A stretch of 41,015 nucleotides of DNA from IMG/VR virus record IMGVR_UViG_3300030085_001711, positions 1-41,015 of that record. One strand, written 5' to 3'. Source of the stretch: a virus. The translations under genes and the position numbers were made by a program. The notes under the pieces were generated by a model. It was given only the letters and a program-made list of their open reading frames with translations. It was not told the origin of the DNA and did no database searches. Below, in pieces: positions 3,098-21,797 of this stretch (positions are counted from its first letter, which is position 1; each line of letters opens with the position of its first letter).

Positions 3098-3126
3098 ATG
3101 AGAGCCAATGTAAGAGCCACTGAGTG
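3098..3126. repeat. 29-bp intergenic repeat, copy 1
   Basis: Matches 5235-5263 at 25 of 29 positions (ATGAGAGCCAAT then TAA, ending CCACTGAGTG). Both copies lie just downstream (leftward sense) of a minus-strand terminator and next to an AAGTGT or AAGGTGT half-site. The CACTcAGTG end is itself a small palindrome. Confidence 0.7.
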
Positions 3127-4910: not shown

Positions 4911-5123
4911 TTAAACCTCCACAAATACTAGAGTTGATGGTTTCAAATATACCTCATTACCAGTATCCCAATTAGTGCAGGTAAAATTAGCCGCACCGAA
5001 AAAGTCTTTTGGATTGTAATGATTTCTTACAAAATATGATTTTGCAGAAGGCTTTCTTTTAAACAGATCGCCTTGCTTAACTTTTCGTAATTCTACTTGT
5101 TTAAAAATTTCTGAAATTGACAT
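4911..5123 (-). CDS. 70-residue conserved phage hypothetical
   Basis: Start placed at ATG 5123 (protein beginning MSISEIFKQVELRKV), with GAGAGG nine bases upstream; a longer GTG frame begins inside the leader motif. The pattern FKRKPSAKSYFVRNHYN, then FTCTNWDTGNEVYLKP, resembles a recurring small phage family of all-beta character. Function unknown. First gene after a terminator, repeat and leader block. Confidence 0.65.
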   Translation of the reverse strand: MSISEIFKQVELRKVKQGDLFKRKPSAKSYFVRNHYNPKDFFGAANFTCTNWDTGNEVYLKPSTLVFVEV

Positions 5124-5138: not shown

Positions 5139-5148
5139 TAGTTGGTTA
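5139..5148 (-). promoter_or_regulatory. Leader motif TAACCAACTA upstream of 5123 start
   Basis: The minus strand reads TAACCAACTAGAGAGGA immediately before the ribosome-binding site. The same ten bases lie before the starts at 6860, 8081 and 8408. It is the exact complement of a stretch in the predicted RNA at 21731-21797. Confidence 0.6.
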
Positions 5149-5206: not shown

Positions 5207-5222
5207 ACACTTTGTTAAGTGT
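5207..5222. promoter_or_regulatory. AAGTGT dyad (inverted arrangement)
   Basis: ACACTTTGTTAAGTGT, a 6-bp inverted repeat around TGTT. It resembles 8442-8455 (ACACCTTATTAAGTGT apart from one-base register) and carries the half-site of the 24-bp dyads, but facing outward. It lies in the leader region of the gene starting at 5123. Confidence 0.4.
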
Positions 5223-5234
5223 CGATGCTAGCCC

Positions 5235-5263
5235 ATGAGAGCCAATATAAAGCCCACTGAGTG
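5235..5263. repeat. 29-bp intergenic repeat, copy 2
   Basis: Second copy of the element at 3098-3126, differing at four positions in the middle. The surrounding 5124-5375 stretch has no gene and consists of the leader motif, the dyad, this repeat and the terminator. Confidence 0.7.
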
Positions 5264-6872: not shown

Positions 6873-6983
6873 CTAGTTGGTTACCAGTTCTGCGAACCAG
6901 TAGGTTAATAAAATTATTATCAGGACAAAAATTAATGCCCTGATAACTGCTTCAAGAAATTGTAGGATACGTTCCTCAATCAT
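6873..6983 (-). CDS. 36-residue single-pass membrane peptide
   Basis: ATG at 6981-6983 lies inside the end of the upstream gene, and the frame ends in TAG at 6873-6875. The peptide begins MIEERILQFLEAVIRALIFV, continues hydrophobic (LIIILLTYWF) and ends AELVTN, a clear transmembrane helix with an acidic N-terminus. It fills an otherwise empty 115-base gap. Too short for similarity evidence; overlap and hydropathy are the support. Confidence 0.45.
   Translation of the reverse strand: MIEERILQFLEAVIRALIFVLIIILLTYWFAELVTN
6874..6883 (-). promoter_or_regulatory. Leader motif TAACCAACTA upstream of 6860 start
   Basis: The minus strand reads TAACCAACTAGAAGGAA directly at the ribosome-binding site; these 17 bases are identical before the start at 8408. 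The motif also forms the last codons and stop of the small upstream ORF (6873-6983). Confidence 0.65.
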
Positions 6984-7224
6984 TGGCTACCTCTTGAACT
7001 GAACGTAGCTTTCTGTCCTCTTTAATCTGATGGCAGAGTTCTATTGCTGCGCTATCGATTACTGAGAAAACATCGTTAGTAGGCCAATATTCAAAAGGTT
7101 GCCATACGTTGTCTTCCATAAACTTAGTAAGCTTACGATCCGACCACTTATGCCAATTGTCAGGAAAATTCTTACATAAGTAATGCCCTGACATAATTTG
7201 GATAGCTTTATTACGCTGCATCAT
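6976..7224 (-). CDS. 82-residue hypothetical protein
   Basis: Starts with two adjacent ATGs at 7224 and 7221, overlapping the preceding TAA. Aromatic-rich (FPDNWHKWSDRKL, VWQPFEYWP) with a C-terminal helix. Coupled to the DUF932 gene. Not recognised. Confidence 0.6.
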   Translation of the reverse strand: MMQRNKAIQIMSGHYLCKNFPDNWHKWSDRKLTKFMEDNVWQPFEYWPTNDVFSVIDSAAIELCHQIKEDRKLRSVQEVAND

Positions 7225-8081
7225 TAAGCCGCCAATAAAAATCTATCGTCGGACATCCACTTATTCACCTCAAGTTCTCGCTTGAACATATTGGCAGCTT
7301 GGGTGTCTTCCCGATTAGCCGTGTTACGTGGCTCAAAGCCATTACCTAGCGTGTGAGATGCATAATTAGTGAATGCAGACATCAAACTGAACTTATTGTG
7401 TCCTCTTACTTCGGCTTCCTGCATATATAACTCAAACATTTTCTTTTGCTTCTGTTCGGAAGGTATAATGTCCTCAAGTAATTTCTGGACAGTGGTCTCT
7501 CTCATATTAGTCTGAGCAAATACTTTGAGCCGTTCACTTTCTAAATAGAAATCGTTTTTAGCCCTGCGTAATTCTGAGATAAAATCCTGTAGTCTAAACC
7601 CAGAAGTATTTTTCCTGCGAACCACTGAGTATTCACCTGATACACAACCATTAGTGCAGAAAGTATCGATAGATCCAAACAACGTAACATTAGCTGCAGA
7701 ACCATTAACGCCATGTATGCCGATAATTCTCTGCCTTAACTCTGTCTTATGTCCACTGTCAGTCTCGATCTCAGTCTTAATAGATGGGAAGGTAATATCT
7801 GCCAGTGCAAAACCACCTTTATGACCTGACTTAAATCTGACCTGAGCATTCAAGATATCGTCACTATCCATATTCTCAGTTATCTGATCCCAGAGACCAC
7901 TGAAAAATGTCTGATGGTCTACGCAGTTGAACTTAGTACTAACGTGACCGATAGCCTCATCAGTAAGCGGATTAATAACAAAGTTGTGACCGTCCATTCT
8001 GGATGGTACGAAAACTGGTTTAAAATCCAAATGCTGCGGTAGTTCGATTTGGCGGTTTATTGAAGTAAAATCTAATGGCAT
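7224..8081 (-). CDS. DUF932 family protein
   Basis: 285 residues with the layout of DUF932 phage/plasmid proteins: a start region mentioning a saved template (HNFVINPLTDEAIGHVSTKF, then NCVDHQ), a GGFALADI-type strand, GIHGVNGSAANVTLFGS, and FCTNGCVSG, which corresponds to the family's conserved C-T-N motif. A helical C-terminal half follows. The family is widespread on phages and plasmids, often in early regions; its biochemical role is not established. Preceded by two copies of the leader motif and an AAAGGG ribosome-binding site. Confidence 0.78.
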   Translation of the reverse strand: MPLDFTSINRQIELPQHLDFKPVFVPSRMDGHNFVINPLTDEAIGHVSTKFNCVDHQTFFSGLWDQITENMDSDDILNAQVRFKSGHKGGFALADITFPSIKTEIETDSGHKTELRQRIIGIHGVNGSAANVTLFGSIDTFCTNGCVSGEYSVVRRKNTSGFRLQDFISELRRAKNDFYLESERLKVFAQTNMRETTVQKLLEDIIPSEQKQKKMFELYMQEAEVRGHNKFSLMSAFTNYASHTLGNGFEPRNTANREDTQAANMFKRELEVNKWMSDDRFLLAA

Positions 8082-8098: not shown

Positions 8099-8124
8099 TA
8101 GTTGGTTAAAATTAAAGTTGGTTA
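8099..8124 (-). promoter_or_regulatory. Two leader motifs upstream of 8081 start
   Basis: Two copies of the motif on the minus strand: TAACCAACT at 8124-8116 and TAACCAACTA at 8108-8099, the second abutting the AAAGAAAGGG ribosome-binding site. The 117-base gap to the previous gene also holds a start-less open frame encoding a hydrophobic peptide (KWLLILIKPFSVLFVWLYLL) that ends in TAA at the first motif. Confidence 0.55.
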
Positions 8125-8423: not shown

Positions 8424-8433
8424 TAGTTGGTTA
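8424..8433 (-). promoter_or_regulatory. Leader motif TAACCAACTA upstream of 8408 start
   Basis: The minus strand reads TAACCAACTAGAAGGAA, overlapping the ribosome-binding site AGAAGGA, then eight bases to the ATG. Identical over 17 bases to the leader at 6874-6883. Confidence 0.65.
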
Positions 8434-8436
8434 CCT

Positions 8437-8456
8437 CGACACCTTATTAAGTGTCG
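8437..8456. promoter_or_regulatory. Palindrome CGACAC-N8-GTGTCG
   Basis: Perfect 6-bp inverted repeat with an 8-bp spacer (CTTATTAA), directly upstream of the leader motif of the 8408 gene. Shares ACAC, TTAAGTGT features with 5207-5222. Likely an operator for the leftward early transcript; the bound protein is unknown. Confidence 0.45.
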
Positions 8457-9078: not shown

Positions 9079-9101
9079 TAACCAACCGAAAGAACCAACT
9101 A
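9079..9101 (+). promoter_or_regulatory. Leader motifs before the integrase start
   Basis: TAACCAAC (9079-9086) and AACCAACTA (9093-9101) precede ATG 9103 with no better ribosome-binding site than GAAAGAA. Same motif as in the leftward leaders but on the plus strand, so it follows the gene's sense rather than genome orientation. Confidence 0.5.
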
Positions 9102-9102
9102 A

Positions 9103-10407
9103 ATGAAAAAAGCTCCTTATGTTAGGATAGAAAAAAGAAAGAATGGTAATCATTACTTTGTTCGTCCTACTGAAAAGTTATTATCCATTTTCCCTGACCT
9201 AGAAATAGTACCTTTTGACACTTTAACGGAAGCCAATGCTCTGGGTTATGCATGGCAGCGTAAACTTGATACACACCTAAGTGGTGGCATTGATACACAT
9301 ACTTTGGAAGATAAATACAGTGTCAGATCCCTAATAAACGAGTGGAAAGCATCTCCTGCCTATCGAGATAATGACCTCTCTACGATGAGAAGTTACGCTA
9401 GTCACATTGAATACTGCATGAACTTCAAATTGAAAGGTGAGTCAGTACGCTTCGATGAGATGAAAGCTACAGACGTTACATATGAACATGCCAAGTATTT
9501 ATTTAATGACATTGAAGATGACGTAAGTACTCACAAAGCAGTCACTACTTTTATGCGCCTACGCGCAGCTTGGAATGAGGGTATCAAATGTGGCTTGGCT
9601 AACGTCAATCCTTTTGCCTTGGTCAAACTACCAGAATTAGAAGCCAGAGCCGTTCTCTGGAGTGAAGACATGGTAACCCAGGCTATCGAACAGTGTGACG
9701 CAGTAGGTAGATACTCAATGGGTACTATGATTACCCTCTGCTACCACTGGTGTCAGCGTCCAGTAGATATTCGCAGACTTCGATGGCGTGATGTCGAAAC
9801 TGGGATAGGGTACTTCAGACAGAAGAAGACTAAAGCTAGAATGGCTATCCCCCTTACGCAGGGTATTAAAGATAGATTAGCACTGCATGAAGAATTGTTA
9901 GGTGACGAGAGATACTTCGATGACATCATCTTGCGAGAAGAGCCTACGCAGAAGCCTTACACAGTCGATAGGGTATCAGTTGTATTCAAAAAGGTAGTCG
10001 TGAAGCCGCTGAAGTGGACTATGGTTCAAGATGGTGACCGTCTAGATGACAACGGAGAGCCTCTACTTACCTACCCAAGGATCGGAGACCTCAGACGTAC
10101 TGGTACTACTCACGCTAGTAGATCAGGCTGTACAGACAGAGAGCTAATGGCTCTCACTGGTCATAAAAATCCTTCCATGCTCGTTATCTATGCAAGGGCA
10201 GGGGAAATAGAAGCAACTAACGCAATGAATAAGAGAGGTTTACTCACTGCAATGGGTCACAATGGTGGTCCAGTTATGGAAGATCGGGTGGGTTGGAAAG
10301 CAGCCGCACAACAGATTGAAACTGGTCAGCTACCTGACAAAGCCCTGATCGAGGCGCAGAACGAAATCAAACGACTAAAGCAACAATTAAAGAAAATCAG
10401 GAATTAA
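9103..10407 (+). CDS. int: Tyrosine site-specific integrase
   Basis: 434 residues. An N-terminal arm-binding part and SAM-like core-binding region (about 70-180) precede the catalytic domain. Visible catalytic residues: R219 in WCQRPVDIRRL, a Lys in the QKKTKARMAIPL strand (about 241-244), R331 in IGDLRRTGTTH, H354 in LTGHKNPS and nucleophile Y363 in MLVIYARA. The usual box II His is Gly (G328), a substitution known in a subset of phage integrases. A short helical C-terminal tail (about 412-434) could be a coiled coil. It integrates phage DNA at a host tRNA; the matching attP core lies at 11200-11240, beyond thyX. Next gene starts 2 bases later. Confidence 0.93.
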   Translation: MKKAPYVRIEKRKNGNHYFVRPTEKLLSIFPDLEIVPFDTLTEANALGYAWQRKLDTHLSGGIDTHTLEDKYSVRSLINEWKASPAYRDNDLSTMRSYASHIEYCMNFKLKGESVRFDEMKATDVTYEHAKYLFNDIEDDVSTHKAVTTFMRLRAAWNEGIKCGLANVNPFALVKLPELEARAVLWSEDMVTQAIEQCDAVGRYSMGTMITLCYHWCQRPVDIRRLRWRDVETGIGYFRQKKTKARMAIPLTQGIKDRLALHEELLGDERYFDDIILREEPTQKPYTVDRVSVVFKKVVVKPLKWTMVQDGDRLDDNGEPLLTYPRIGDLRRTGTTHASRSGCTDRELMALTGHKNPSMLVIYARAGEIEATNAMNKRGLLTAMGHNGGPVMEDRVGWKAAAQQIETGQLPDKALIEAQNEIKRLKQQLKKIRN

Positions 10408-11199: not shown

Positions 11200-11240
11200 T
11201 GGCTCCGACGGTAGGGATCGAACCTACGACCAATTGATTA
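11200..11240 (-). other. attP: attP core: 3' end of a tRNA gene
   Basis: Read on the minus strand, the 41 bases give the 3' anticodon arm, variable loop TGGTC, a full T arm (GTAGG, TTCGATC, CCTAC), the 3' acceptor strand CGTCGGA, discriminator G and encoded CCA. The 5' half of a tRNA is absent: upstream bases depart from a tRNA at the anticodon loop (A at position 33), so this is not a functional gene but the identity block tRNA-targeting phages use to restore the host tRNA. Anticodon-proximal CUAA and a G discriminator fit tRNA-Arg(UCU); tRNA-Lys is an alternative. Confidence 0.82.
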
Positions 11241-11322
11241 GTTGGTTATCGTTTAAAATCAATGGGTTAGAAATTCTAGGTGTTAAAAACTGTTAATGAA
11301 AATAGTCAGTAGTTCGCTACAG

Positions 11323-12944: not shown

Positions 12945-12973
12945 TTCATTAGGTGTTAATGCTACCATATAAA
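12945..12973 (+). promoter_or_regulatory. Possible promoter of the helicase operon
   Basis: Weak TTCATT (12945-12950), 17-base spacer, TATAAA (12968-12973). An operator half-site TTAGGTGT overlaps it (12949-12956) and AACCAACTA follows at 12974-12982. The -35 is poor, so activation or another start is possible. Confidence 0.35.
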
Positions 12974-13009
12974 AACCAACTACATAAGTGTTAGCAAAAG
13001 GAAAACACA

Positions 13010-14224
13010 TTGAACCACTCTATTCTAAAGAACTGTTTAAGTAACGAGTTCTTTGAGTCGAACAAGGCAAAACTACGAGCATCACTCTTCGAAGACCAAC
13101 TCAAAGACTTATTTACTACTATTATCGAACTCCATGAAAAGTTTAATAAGGACATAACTCCCTTAGAACTGTTCAGCTACTGGAAATCTAAAAACCCAAC
13201 TTCCACTGCATCTTGGACTGCAGAAATGGAAGATCAAATATCATCTATCGCTGACGCTGAACAAATGGATCAAGCTGTAGCAGTAGACGTTATCGAATCT
13301 CTCTGGCGGCAACACACTGGACTAGACATCGCTAATCTAGGCATTCGCATGAGCGAAGGTGACTGTAGTGCTATGGATAACTTAAACACCTTACTAGAGC
13401 GTGTAGGGTCTGGCTATCTACCCGATGACTTTGGTGACAATGTTACAGATGACATCTACGAGTTACTAGCCGTAGTGTCGGACGATAACCGTTTTAAGTT
13501 TAACATCGAGACACTAGCGCGGCATGTATATGGCATAGGTCGGGGAGAGTTTGGCGTAATAGCGGCTTACTCTAACGTAGGCAAAACAGCCTTTGCTGTA
13601 AGTTTAGCTGCCTCTCCTGCAGGGTTCTGTCAGCAAGGAGCTAAGGTTTGTTATATAGCTAATGAGGAAGTTGCAAAACGCACTAAGCTAAGAGCTATTC
13701 AAGCTTATACTGGTCTTACCAAAGATGAAATACAAGCTGATCCCTCAGCCGCTGCAGCCAAGTATAGCGGAATAAAAGACCGTCTGTTTTTTGTTGATGC
13801 CCAAGGTTGGGATATTCAGATGCTAGAAGGTTATCTAGCCAAAGAGCAACCTGACCTCTGTGTAATAGATATGGCTGACAAGATAGCTTTGACTGAGAAG
13901 TTTAACTCAGGGCATGAGCGTCTAAGAGAACTTTATTACCGACTACGTGAGTGTGCAAAGAAATATAACTGTGCGCTTATCGGTCTGTCTCAGGCAAACG
14001 GAGATGCGGAAGGTAAGACAAGGCTATCTATGTCGATGCTAGAGGGTTCTCGCGTCAGTAAGCAAAGTGAAGCGGATTTGTTGTTAGGCATTGGGAAGCT
14101 TGATCAAGCAGACAACCCTGATGATCCTGCACGTTGGATCACTGTGATGAAAAATAAGATATCTGGTTGGCATGGAACTGTTCAATGCAACCTTCAAGGG
14201 AAGGTGTCTCGCTATGTGGTCTGA
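13010..14224 (+). CDS. DnaB/RecA-fold replicative helicase
   Basis: 404 residues from a TTG start with AAAGGAA seven bases upstream. An N-terminal helical region (about 1-160) precedes a RecA-type ATPase: Walker A AAYSNVGKTAFA (185-196; K192, T193), Glu pair in CYIANEE (214-220), Walker B DLCVIDMADK (282-291; D287) and a sensor motif IGLSQAN (324-330). It matches the helicase half of T7 gp4/DnaB and would act with the separate primase ahead of the polymerase. Its stop overlaps a 25-residue membrane peptide. Confidence 0.85.
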   Translation: MNHSILKNCLSNEFFESNKAKLRASLFEDQLKDLFTTIIELHEKFNKDITPLELFSYWKSKNPTSTASWTAEMEDQISSIADAEQMDQAVAVDVIESLWRQHTGLDIANLGIRMSEGDCSAMDNLNTLLERVGSGYLPDDFGDNVTDDIYELLAVVSDDNRFKFNIETLARHVYGIGRGEFGVIAAYSNVGKTAFAVSLAASPAGFCQQGAKVCYIANEEVAKRTKLRAIQAYTGLTKDEIQADPSAAAAKYSGIKDRLFFVDAQGWDIQMLEGYLAKEQPDLCVIDMADKIALTEKFNSGHERLRELYYRLRECAKKYNCALIGLSQANGDAEGKTRLSMSMLEGSRVSKQSEADLLLGIGKLDQADNPDDPARWITVMKNKISGWHGTVQCNLQGKVSRYVV

Positions 14225-19974: not shown

Positions 19975-21660
19975 ATGAGCAGTTATAAATCTAACCTGAA
20001 CCCGATGTTCAGGAGCAAATTTTCTGAAGATATTTTCAATCACAAATATAAACATGAAGGGGCAGAGACTTGGTCTGCCTTAGCCAAAACCTTAATAGAT
20101 GATGTATGCGGAGAGATCCTTACAGACGAAGAATGTGATCAACTCACTGAATATGTACGAGACATGAAGTTTATCCCTGGAGGTAGATATTTATACTACG
20201 CAGGGAGACCAAATAAGTTCTTTAATAATTGTTATCTACTAAAAGCAGAAGAAGATAGCAGAGAGGATTGGGCTAACCTAAGTTGGAAAGCAGAAAGCTG
20301 CCTGATGACAGGCGGTGGGATAGGGGTGGACTACTCAGTTTATCGACCCAGTGGTGCGCCTATAAATAAAACAGGTGGGCAAGCATCTGGACCAATTCCT
20401 AAGATGAATATGCTTAATGAGATAGGTAGGCGTGTTATGCAGGGTGGATCACGTAGGTCAGCCATCTACGCATCCCTTAACTGGAAGCACAGAGACATCC
20501 ATGAGTTCCTATCTGCTAAAGATTGGGCTAATATGCCAGTAGGTACTACAGGTAAAAGTCTGTGGGATATCAAGCAAGATGACTTCAACTTTCCTGCACC
20601 TCTCGATATGACTAACATCTCAGTTAACTATGACACTGAGTGGTTACTTAATTACTACAGAACTGGTAATATTGGATCTACCTTTCTAAAGAACGTAGAA
20701 CAGGCAATGCGTACTGCAGAACCTGGATTTAGTTTTAACTTCTTCGATAAAGAGAATGAAACTCTTCGGAATGCATGTACTGAAGTGACTTCAGCCGATG
20801 ATAGTGATGTCTGTAATTTAGGCTCTATCAATATGGGTAGAGTAACTGACATCCACGAAATGGCAGACGTTGTAGAGTTAGCCACGAAGTTTCTTATCTG
20901 TGGTACACTCAGAGCGCAGCTACCTTATGAGAAGGTATATGAAACTAGAGAGAAGAACCGTAGACTAGGTCTTGGGCTGATGGGTATGCATGAGTGGCTT
21001 ATACAGCGTAATTCTAAGTATGAGGTAACTCCAACCCTTCATGCTTGGTTATCTGTGTATAAGGGTGTGTCTGATAAGGTGAGTAAGGAGACTGCAGATC
21101 ATCTAGGTATAAGTAGACCAGTAGCTAACCGCGCAATAGCTCCTACAGGCTCAATAGGCATCTTAGCAGGTACAAGTACTGGAGTAGAGCCTATCTTCGC
21201 TGTAGCCTACAAAAGACGCTATCTGAAGGGTAATACTAGGTGGGTATATCAATACGTAGTGGACTCAGCGGCTCAGGAGCTAATAGATCGATACGGAGTA
21301 AACCCAGAAAATGTAGAGAGTGCATTGGATCTGGCTGCAGACTATGAACGTAGGATGGCTTTCCAAGCTGACGTTCAAGATTACGTAGATATGTCGATAT
21401 CATCTACTATTAACTTACCTGCGTGGGGTTCTAAGATGAATAATGAGTCTACAGTATCTGACTTCGCACATACACTAGCTAAGTATGCGCCTCGACTACG
21501 TGGATTTACCTGTTATCCTGATGGATCGAGAGGTGGTCAGCCTTTAACTGCAGTTCCATACCAAGAAGCAGTCGATAAATTAGGTGAAGAATTTGATGAA
21601 CATGTAGAGACACACGATATATGTGACATCAGCGGAACAGGTGGCTCATGTGGTGTCTAA
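19975..21660 (+). CDS. nrdJ: Ribonucleotide reductase, class II (B12-dependent) type
   Basis: 561 residues. Reduces ribonucleotides to deoxyribonucleotides. Key positions: FNNCYLL (C86), SCLMTGGGIGVDYS (109-121), RNACTEVTSADDSDVCNLGS with N266, C268, E270 and C280 (radical and redox residues), the PTGSIGILAGTSTG loop and a C-terminal redox tail CDISGTGGSCGV. No NrdB partner gene follows and the motif set resembles adenosylcobalamin-dependent NrdJ, so class II is favoured over class I. It would depend on host cobalamin. Three bases separate it from MazG; the stop is followed by overlapping terminators. Confidence 0.9.
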   Translation: MSSYKSNLNPMFRSKFSEDIFNHKYKHEGAETWSALAKTLIDDVCGEILTDEECDQLTEYVRDMKFIPGGRYLYYAGRPNKFFNNCYLLKAEEDSREDWANLSWKAESCLMTGGGIGVDYSVYRPSGAPINKTGGQASGPIPKMNMLNEIGRRVMQGGSRRSAIYASLNWKHRDIHEFLSAKDWANMPVGTTGKSLWDIKQDDFNFPAPLDMTNISVNYDTEWLLNYYRTGNIGSTFLKNVEQAMRTAEPGFSFNFFDKENETLRNACTEVTSADDSDVCNLGSINMGRVTDIHEMADVVELATKFLICGTLRAQLPYEKVYETREKNRRLGLGLMGMHEWLIQRNSKYEVTPTLHAWLSVYKGVSDKVSKETADHLGISRPVANRAIAPTGSIGILAGTSTGVEPIFAVAYKRRYLKGNTRWVYQYVVDSAAQELIDRYGVNPENVESALDLAADYERRMAFQADVQDYVDMSISSTINLPAWGSKMNNESTVSDFAHTLAKYAPRLRGFTCYPDGSRGGQPLTAVPYQEAVDKLGEEFDEHVETHDICDISGTGGSCGV

Positions 21661-21676
21661 ATGCTTGTTTTATATC

Positions 21677-21709
21677 AAAAAAGCCCCTAAATCGGTTGAC
21701 TTAGAGGCT
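21677..21709 (-). terminator. Rho-independent terminator, leftward
   Basis: Minus strand: GCCTCTAA, a 10-base loop, TTAGGGGC (one mismatch) followed by six T. It ends the leftward structural transcript, about 90 bases past the last stop. The same DNA contains a rightward promoter. Confidence 0.75.
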
Positions 21710-21724
21710 CAAAACGAGTAGAAT
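21696..21724 (+). promoter_or_regulatory. Sigma70-type promoter inside terminator
   Basis: TTGACT (21696-21701), 17-base spacer, TAGAAT (21719-21724). It points at convergent genes, and a terminator lies only about 70 bases ahead, so its product should be a short RNA. Confidence 0.6.
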
Positions 21725-21730
21725 GTCATT

Positions 21731-21797
21731 GAAATGGTTGGTTACCATTTTAGTTGGTTAATCCCCTGTTTTCGTAATGAGGCAGGGGATTATTTTT
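21731..21797 (+). ncRNA. Predicted ~67-nt small RNA with anti-leader sequence
   Basis: Bounded by the promoter at 21696-21724 and the terminator at 21759-21797. Predicted fold: a 7-bp hairpin AAATGGT/ACCATTT (21732-21738 with 21744-21750) with loop TGGTT, a single-stranded linker TAGTTGGTTA (21751-21760), then the terminator stem. The linker is the perfect 10-base complement of the leader motif UAACCAACUA next to the start codons at 5123, 6860, 8081 and 8408; pairing extends to 13 bases, counting one G-U, toward the ribosome-binding site at 6860 and 8408. Suggests a trans-acting antisense RNA. No ORF of note inside. Transcription itself is unproven. Confidence 0.45.
21759..21797 (+). terminator. 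Rho-independent terminator, rightward
   Basis: TAATCCCCTG (21759-21768) pairs with CAGGGGATTA (21783-21792), a 10-bp stem, 14-base loop, then five T. Ends the RNR transcript and the predicted small RNA, and overlaps the stop codon of the convergent gene. Confidence 0.85.

Follow-up and report, generated by a model that had tools for sequence, protein, structure and literature searches.

The window, a 41-kb IMG/VR record (IMGVR_UViG_3300030085_001711) analysed at its full length, carries a set of rightward replication genes that ends with a ribonucleotide reductase (RNR) gene and meets leftward structural genes at a junction spanning 21660-21796 (Table 1). Its DNA polymerase has 70% identity to that of Roseobacter phage CRP-738, 56% to that of CRP-235, 51% to those of CRP-3 and CRP-212, and 35% to that of Puniceispirillum phage HMO-2011; because of these identities the window is classified as an HMO-2011-type podovirus, and it meets the criteria for that type, which are a common DNA polymerase, helicase, primase and RNR module together with the gene order. 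The group has been described and is among the dominant marine viral groups (PMC9038755).

Table 1. Genes, parts of the small RNA element and predicted target sites in the window.
Feature	Position	Strand	Support
Ribonucleotide reductase (RNR), last rightward replication gene	19975-21660	+	
Integrase gene	9103-10407	+	
Replicative helicase gene	13010-14224	+	
DUF932 gene	7224-8081	-	
Intrinsic terminator of leftward structural operon, loop holds sRNA -35	21681-21710	-	arrangement kept, stems changed, in nearly all relatives
sRNA promoter: -35 TTGACT (21696-21701), 17-nt spacer, -10 TAGAAT (21719-21724)	21696-21724	+	TTGAC and A/T-rich -10 in 19 of 19 aligned family sequences
Predicted sRNA, ~67 nt, start inferred from -10 box	21731-21797	+	fold and covariance model match
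5' hairpin, stem GAAAUGGU/ACCAUUUU, loop UGGUU	21731-21751	+	compensatory stem changes across 19 hairpins
Linker UAGUUGGUUA, seed complementary to leader UAACCAACUA	21751-21760	+	
Intrinsic terminator of sRNA, 14-bp stem, U tail	21759-21797	+	
Target site, leader of gene starting 5123 (70 aa)	5139-5148	-	genome's best ungapped antisense match, runs through start codon
Target site, leader of gene starting 6860 (112 aa)	6874-6883	-	duplex scan, leader scoring
Two tandem target sites, DUF932 gene leader (start 8081)	8099-8124	-	motif and duplex scans
Target site, leader of gene starting 8408 (69 aa)	8424-8433	-	duplex scan, leader scoring
Two tandem target-like sites TAACCAACC, GAACCAACTA, integrase leader	9079-9101	+	motif search, leader scoring
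Weaker target-like site, replicative helicase leader	12973-12982	+	leader scoring

The junction contains a putative small RNA (sRNA) gene with its own promoter and intrinsic terminator, which satisfies the free-standing gene criterion for a trans-acting base-pairing sRNA. The promoter reported by the first-pass annotation is present and conserved in the family, and so is its terminator in the window, with a stem of 14 bp instead of the 10 bp originally given. The folded 67-nt RNA has a minimum free energy of -26.8 kcal/mol (z = -5.2) and displays both elements that had been proposed, with the loop UGGUU and the linker AGUUGGU unpaired and the terminator formed. The element is insulated by a convergent terminator on the opposite strand, which the annotation had not mentioned and whose loop includes the TTGACT of the sRNA promoter. 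In nearly all members of the family the -35 of the sRNA lies in the loop of the equivalent opposite terminator, and the terminator stem therefore varies around a fixed promoter element. A tRNA search found none, and the window has no gathering-level match in Rfam; weak Rfam matches to PyrR and NsiR1 were judged to be chance. A hidden peptide, suggested by a 22-codon ATG frame in the window's RNA, was rejected because the RNA of the L009-type relatives has no ATG.

The element occurs at the same junction in RNR relatives from IMG/VR, in CRP-3, CRP-212, CRP-738 and CRP-235, and in contigs G015-G031, and pattern searches recovered further variants; the pattern TTGGTTACC...TAGTTGGTTA also matched contigs L084, L086 and L090, which were dropped as they lack the promoter and terminator. 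Across 19 compared sequences the TTGAC, the spacing and the A/T-rich -10 are retained while the hairpin stem varies (AAATGG/CCATTT, GAACG/CGTTC, GAAAAG/CTTTTC, AAACGG/CCGTTT, TGAACC/GGTTCA, GAATTAGGT/ACCTAATTC and others). In particular, each of the six loop-proximal positions is a standard pair in all 19 distinct hairpins and occurs as three to five pair types; the stems were chosen by eye and tabulated by hand, because a MAFFT alignment misaligned the 5' stem arms. A covariance model constructed from ten relatives' sequences, leaving out the window and its near relatives, matches the window at 21696-21793 with an E-value of 5.3e-7, and also matches G001, G027, G028 and CRP-738. The model has no match in the examined sequences of HMO-2011, HTVC033P, G032 and G033, nor where the sequences of CRP-207 and CRP-1 cover the junction. 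Scanning genomes for the class-3 RNA gave 9 matches, in unrelated organisms by title and with no recognisable prophage. Judged by sequence comparison and without transcript data, the element at 21696-21797 is a gene for a small RNA that HMO-2011-type marine podoviruses have conserved.

The complement of the linker recurs in the leaders of early genes. As originally claimed, four minus-strand genes share it, the motif TAACCAACTA standing 13-17 nt 5' of the start codons at 5123, 6860, 8081 and 8408, and a close variant, GAACCAACTA, lies 1 nt ahead of the start of the integrase gene (9103). With at most one mismatch, TAACCAACTA has 16 copies in the window versus 4.0 +/- 2.0 expected, and none of 100 shuffles contains as many. 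The analysis adds the tandem sites before 8081 and the integrase, a motif in the helicase leader, which has a separate version in the helicase leaders of CRP-3, CRP-212 and the L009-type relatives, and a second pairing site in the hairpin loop. There are thus two places of predicted pairing: the linker with a site that lies 5' of the Shine-Dalgarno sequence or overlaps it, and the loop with the stretch from the Shine-Dalgarno sequence to the start, to which the loop and the 3' arm are complementary; the loop pairing sometimes takes in the Shine-Dalgarno sequence itself (GGACCAAUC-AUG).

An exact copy of TAACCAACTA at 11239-11248 is no leader and adjoins a probable tRNA-derived att site; here, the minus strand of the window has an att-like tRNA end at 11200-11224, and the tRNA 3'-end-like sequence GGTTCGATCCCTACCGTCGGAGCCA is probably the phage att site, the stretch up to and including the TAACCAACTA copy covering 11200-11248. 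Directly 5' of the leader motif of gene 8408 is an inverted repeat, CGACACTTAATAAGGTGTCG (8437-8456, minus strand), with a close copy, CGACACTTAACAAAGTGT, before gene 5123 (5207-5224, minus strand); the two are possibly an operator common to early transcription units. Further, TTGGCTCTCAT is repeated in intergenic stretches of the early region, at 3098-3108 and 5235-5245 of the minus strand, inside a longer similar block, CTCAGTGG...TTGGCTCTCAT.

Duplex-energy calculations, which disregard accessibility, place the named leaders at the top of the genome. When the sRNA was scanned against every 45-nt segment of both strands, ranks 1-4 of 9,062 were the leaders of 5123, 6860, 8408 and 8081; in CRP-3, the top three were likewise early-gene leaders. 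Scoring the loop and linker against all predicted leaders of the window yields a z of -10.4, where 0 of 500 shuffled RNAs are as good and the integrase is also among the top-scoring leaders. Across genomes (contig gene starts came from a simple purpose-made caller), the shuffle counts are 0-6 of 500 in 11 of 12; the exception is G021 (27 of 500), whose DUF932 leader has an 11-nt match despite the weak summed leader test. Not every part is above shuffles when taken singly: the G020 linker alone is not (z = -0.7), its loop carrying the signal, and the loop test alone is not for the CRP isolates. When gaps are disallowed, the hairpin and linker together match entire ribosome-binding sites in antisense almost from end to end. 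Among 81,974 positions of the window, the leader of 5123 matches best, over 29 nt through the start codon, and the matches at CRP-3 gp57, CRP-212 gp56 and a G029 gene rank first genome-wide in each; in these four genomes the top matches span 24-31 nt including the Shine-Dalgarno sequence and the start codon. The RNA therefore meets the sRNA criterion of being imperfectly complementary, above chance, to several mRNAs from other loci. If the place were only a junction of convergent operons with a bidirectional terminator, resembling leaders by chance, this would account for the terminators on both strands and for a promoter match that by itself is at chance level (1 found vs 3.1 expected). However, the duplex scan, the shuffles, the ungapped match, the covariance model and the exchange of RNAs described below exclude chance, and relatives retain the promoter, hairpin and linker, leaving this explanation with almost no credence.

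The linker and the leaders co-vary across relatives, in the forms UAACCAACUA, AACCAACGAA, UCUAACU and CUAAACU. Independent change of leader and linker would have refuted the original proposal; the opposite was found. Co-changing pairs include AGUUAGAU/AUCUAACU in CRP-3 (linker AAGUUAGAUAG, leaders AUCUAACUUGGAG...GACCAAUG), AAGUUUAG/CUAAACUU in CRP-235 (linker AAGUUUAGUG, leaders CUAAACUUACAAAAGGAAAUGACCAAAUG) and UUCGUUGGU/ACCAACGAA in G021 (linker UAAUUCGUUGGU, leader ACCAACGAAUUA); CRP-212 has the linker AGUUAGAAUG with leaders UUCUAACUGGAG...UGACCAAAUG, and CRP-738 the linker UUGUUCGUUGGUU and loop GAUUGGUCC with leaders UUUAACCAACGAACAUGGAG and GGACCAAUCAGAUG. In the L009-type relatives, UAGUUGGU and UAGUCA face ACCAACUA and UGACUA before the helicase; the loop is AUUAGUCA, the linker UAGUUGGU, and the leaders are located before the helicase (ACCAACUAAAGGACUGACUAC-UUG) and the primase (AACCAACUACUAGGAAUGAGA-AUG). 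An exact-pattern search for the L009-type leaders gave 24 matches, none of them in HMO-2011-type phages. When RNAs are exchanged between genomes, most of the pairing signal is lost: in the linker swap test, the z in the own genome is -7.8 for the window, -6.9 for CRP-212, -3.4 for CRP-3 and -2.6 for CRP-235, and foreign combinations are mostly near zero. The sRNA-less genomes of HMO-2011, HTVC033P and G032 remain at background level with no excess pairing, and the leaders of the DUF932 orthologues in sRNA-less CRP-1, CRP-345 and HMO-2011 are motif-free. In G033 (L325/L326), where no sRNA was found, the DUF932 leader TTAACCAACTAAAAGGAG (~17375, minus strand) matches the window's linker over 14 nt, and this genome pairs with the window's RNA at a z of -5.0. 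Overall, the criterion of co-variation between an sRNA and its target sites in relatives is met, and the observation made in the first-pass annotation holds and is much stronger than claimed.

Two side observations concern the same genes. The first codons of the helicase in G021, G028, G029, G030, CRP-738 and others, ATGGACCAATCA, are the complement of the own sRNA loop, GATTGGTCC, which reflects either conservation of the protein or a target site inside the coding sequence. The DUF932 early gene is on the strand opposite the integrase in sRNA-positive genomes; in sRNA-less CRP-1 (L365), CRP-345 (L366) and HMO-2011 (L261) it is on the integrase strand and adjoins it.

For phage sRNAs such as VpdS and PreS the known targets are host mRNAs (PMC12197685), which were not among the targets scored here, so that the RNA could mainly target host mRNAs with its complementarity to phage leaders being secondary; at least four classes of linker have changed together with the phage leaders, which makes this very improbable. 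Alternatively, the motif, including its copies between convergent genes, could serve as an operator to which a phage protein binds on the DNA, the RNA pairing being incidental. Operators would likewise co-evolve as a set, and the sRNA gene (21735/21751) shares a tandem spacing of 16 bp with the stretch ahead of gene 8081 (8099/8115). But the strict orientation of the motif and its placement around the Shine-Dalgarno sequence and start codon, the compensatory changes in the RNA hairpin, and the promoter and terminator conserved on one strand are all at odds with an operator, and no HTH or S24-type repressor was detected by Pfam and PHROGs among the early genes of the window or CRP-3, most of whose proteins have unknown function; we give the operator hardly any weight.

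We consider it likely that the ~67-nt RNA is a trans-acting antisense sRNA that represses several early and replication mRNAs together. It would be transcribed from its own host-type promoter between the two convergent terminators; its single-stranded linker would pair with a seed site just 5' of or running into the Shine-Dalgarno sequence, and the hairpin loop and opened 3' arm would pair from there to the start codon, yielding a duplex that covers the ribosome-binding site and represses translation. In the window, the integrase and the genes that start at 5123, 6860, 8081 and 8408 are the predicted targets, to which the helicase may be added. The gene structure, the hairpin conservation, the two-site complementarity and the own-genome specificity are supported, as far as sequence alone can do so; transcription, repression over activation, and the biological moment (lysogeny or superinfection immunity, or early-gene shut-off) are inferred. 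The same holds for the earlier proposal that an antisense RNA, made from a promoter of its own, acts in trans on several early ribosome-binding sites: comparative evidence supports it, its transcription and regulatory effect remaining inferences.

That proposal had left undecided whether the RNA blocks or exposes ribosome-binding sites. The same pairing could activate translation by freeing the Shine-Dalgarno sequence from leader structure, and in some leaders this sequence is predicted to be partly paired and to open when the linker site is held single-stranded. However, the opening is small in the window's leaders and largely an artefact in CRP-3 and CRP-212, because the blocked stretch extends into the Shine-Dalgarno sequence; nothing in the modelled leader folds speaks clearly for activation. 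The second pairing site, moreover, is on the stretch from the Shine-Dalgarno sequence to the start codon, and the duplex is able to cover both. The predicted placement of linker and loop is the geometry of translational repression, so that blocking is favoured, exposing is not, and activation is unlikely.

An integrase is present in all 16 sRNA-positive genomes spanning the region, some of them near-identical, and CRP-3 is known to integrate at tRNA-Met (PMC6918029). The phages CRP-3, CRP-212 and CRP-235 share one host strain and differ in their linker-leader pairs, which is what immunity groups would show. Because an integrase is always present and no protein repressor was detected, RNA-based immunity, as with the C4 RNA of P1/P7, is possible but unproven. 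An exclusive role in immunity is opposed by HMO-2011 and CRP-1, which have integrases and no such RNA at the junction, and by the integrase itself being a predicted target in the window. Weighing the evidence from integrases, repressors and linkers with these points, we hold antisense repression to be probable, and regard only tentatively the further idea that a single multi-target antisense RNA, with no CI-type protein, is the lysogeny repressor and immunity factor, its immunity groups being set by linker/leader co-change.

Several known systems share parts of this design. The RegA protein of T4 acts on the start sites of many early mRNAs and silences them; it works alike, as one factor on many early mRNAs, and is unrelated, being a protein. 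The satellite phage P4 uses an RNA, CI, rather than a protein as its immunity factor, which pairs with leader sequences, is processed from a leader transcript and acts on transcription termination. The window's sRNA resembles CI in its leader pairing and, if proven, as an RNA immunity factor; unlike CI, it is a separate gene and is predicted to pair with ribosome-binding sites. Known antisense or trans-acting phage RNAs include C4, sar, OOP, VpdS and PreS (PMC12197685). C4 of P1/P7 is likewise an antisense RNA with complementary stretches in its loops that pairs around a ribosome-binding site, and a few base differences set its immunity specificity (PMC12197685). However, C4 has one target (ant/icd), whereas the window's sRNA is a free-standing gene with its own promoter and terminator and several predicted mRNA targets; it does not qualify as C4, which is absent from both the gathering-level and the weak Rfam matches. 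The sar RNA of P22 is similarly short (68/69 nt) and reduces the translation of a phage mRNA with which it pairs (PMC12197685); its sole target is the antirepressor mRNA, in contrast to several distant early leaders. VpdS of phage VP882 and PreS of phage lambda are trans-acting sRNAs of temperate phages (PMC12197685), but they were found experimentally, are Hfq-dependent and have host targets, with no reported co-evolving leader motif common to early genes. In the papers on HMO-2011-type phages that were searched by term, no mention of a repressor or of a small RNA was found.

One RNA that mirrors a ribosome-binding site motif common to several early genes, and that co-evolves with it across a major marine phage group, seems to be new. 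If true, the RNA would be a compact regulon controller, as far as found undescribed for any phage, and would address a gap in how the dominant marine HMO-2011-type phages time their gene expression or maintain lysogeny. Further, its relatives provide a natural data set of co-varying RNA-mRNA pairs, and the question of lysis or lysogeny becomes directly testable in the cultured isolates CRP-3 and CRP-738.
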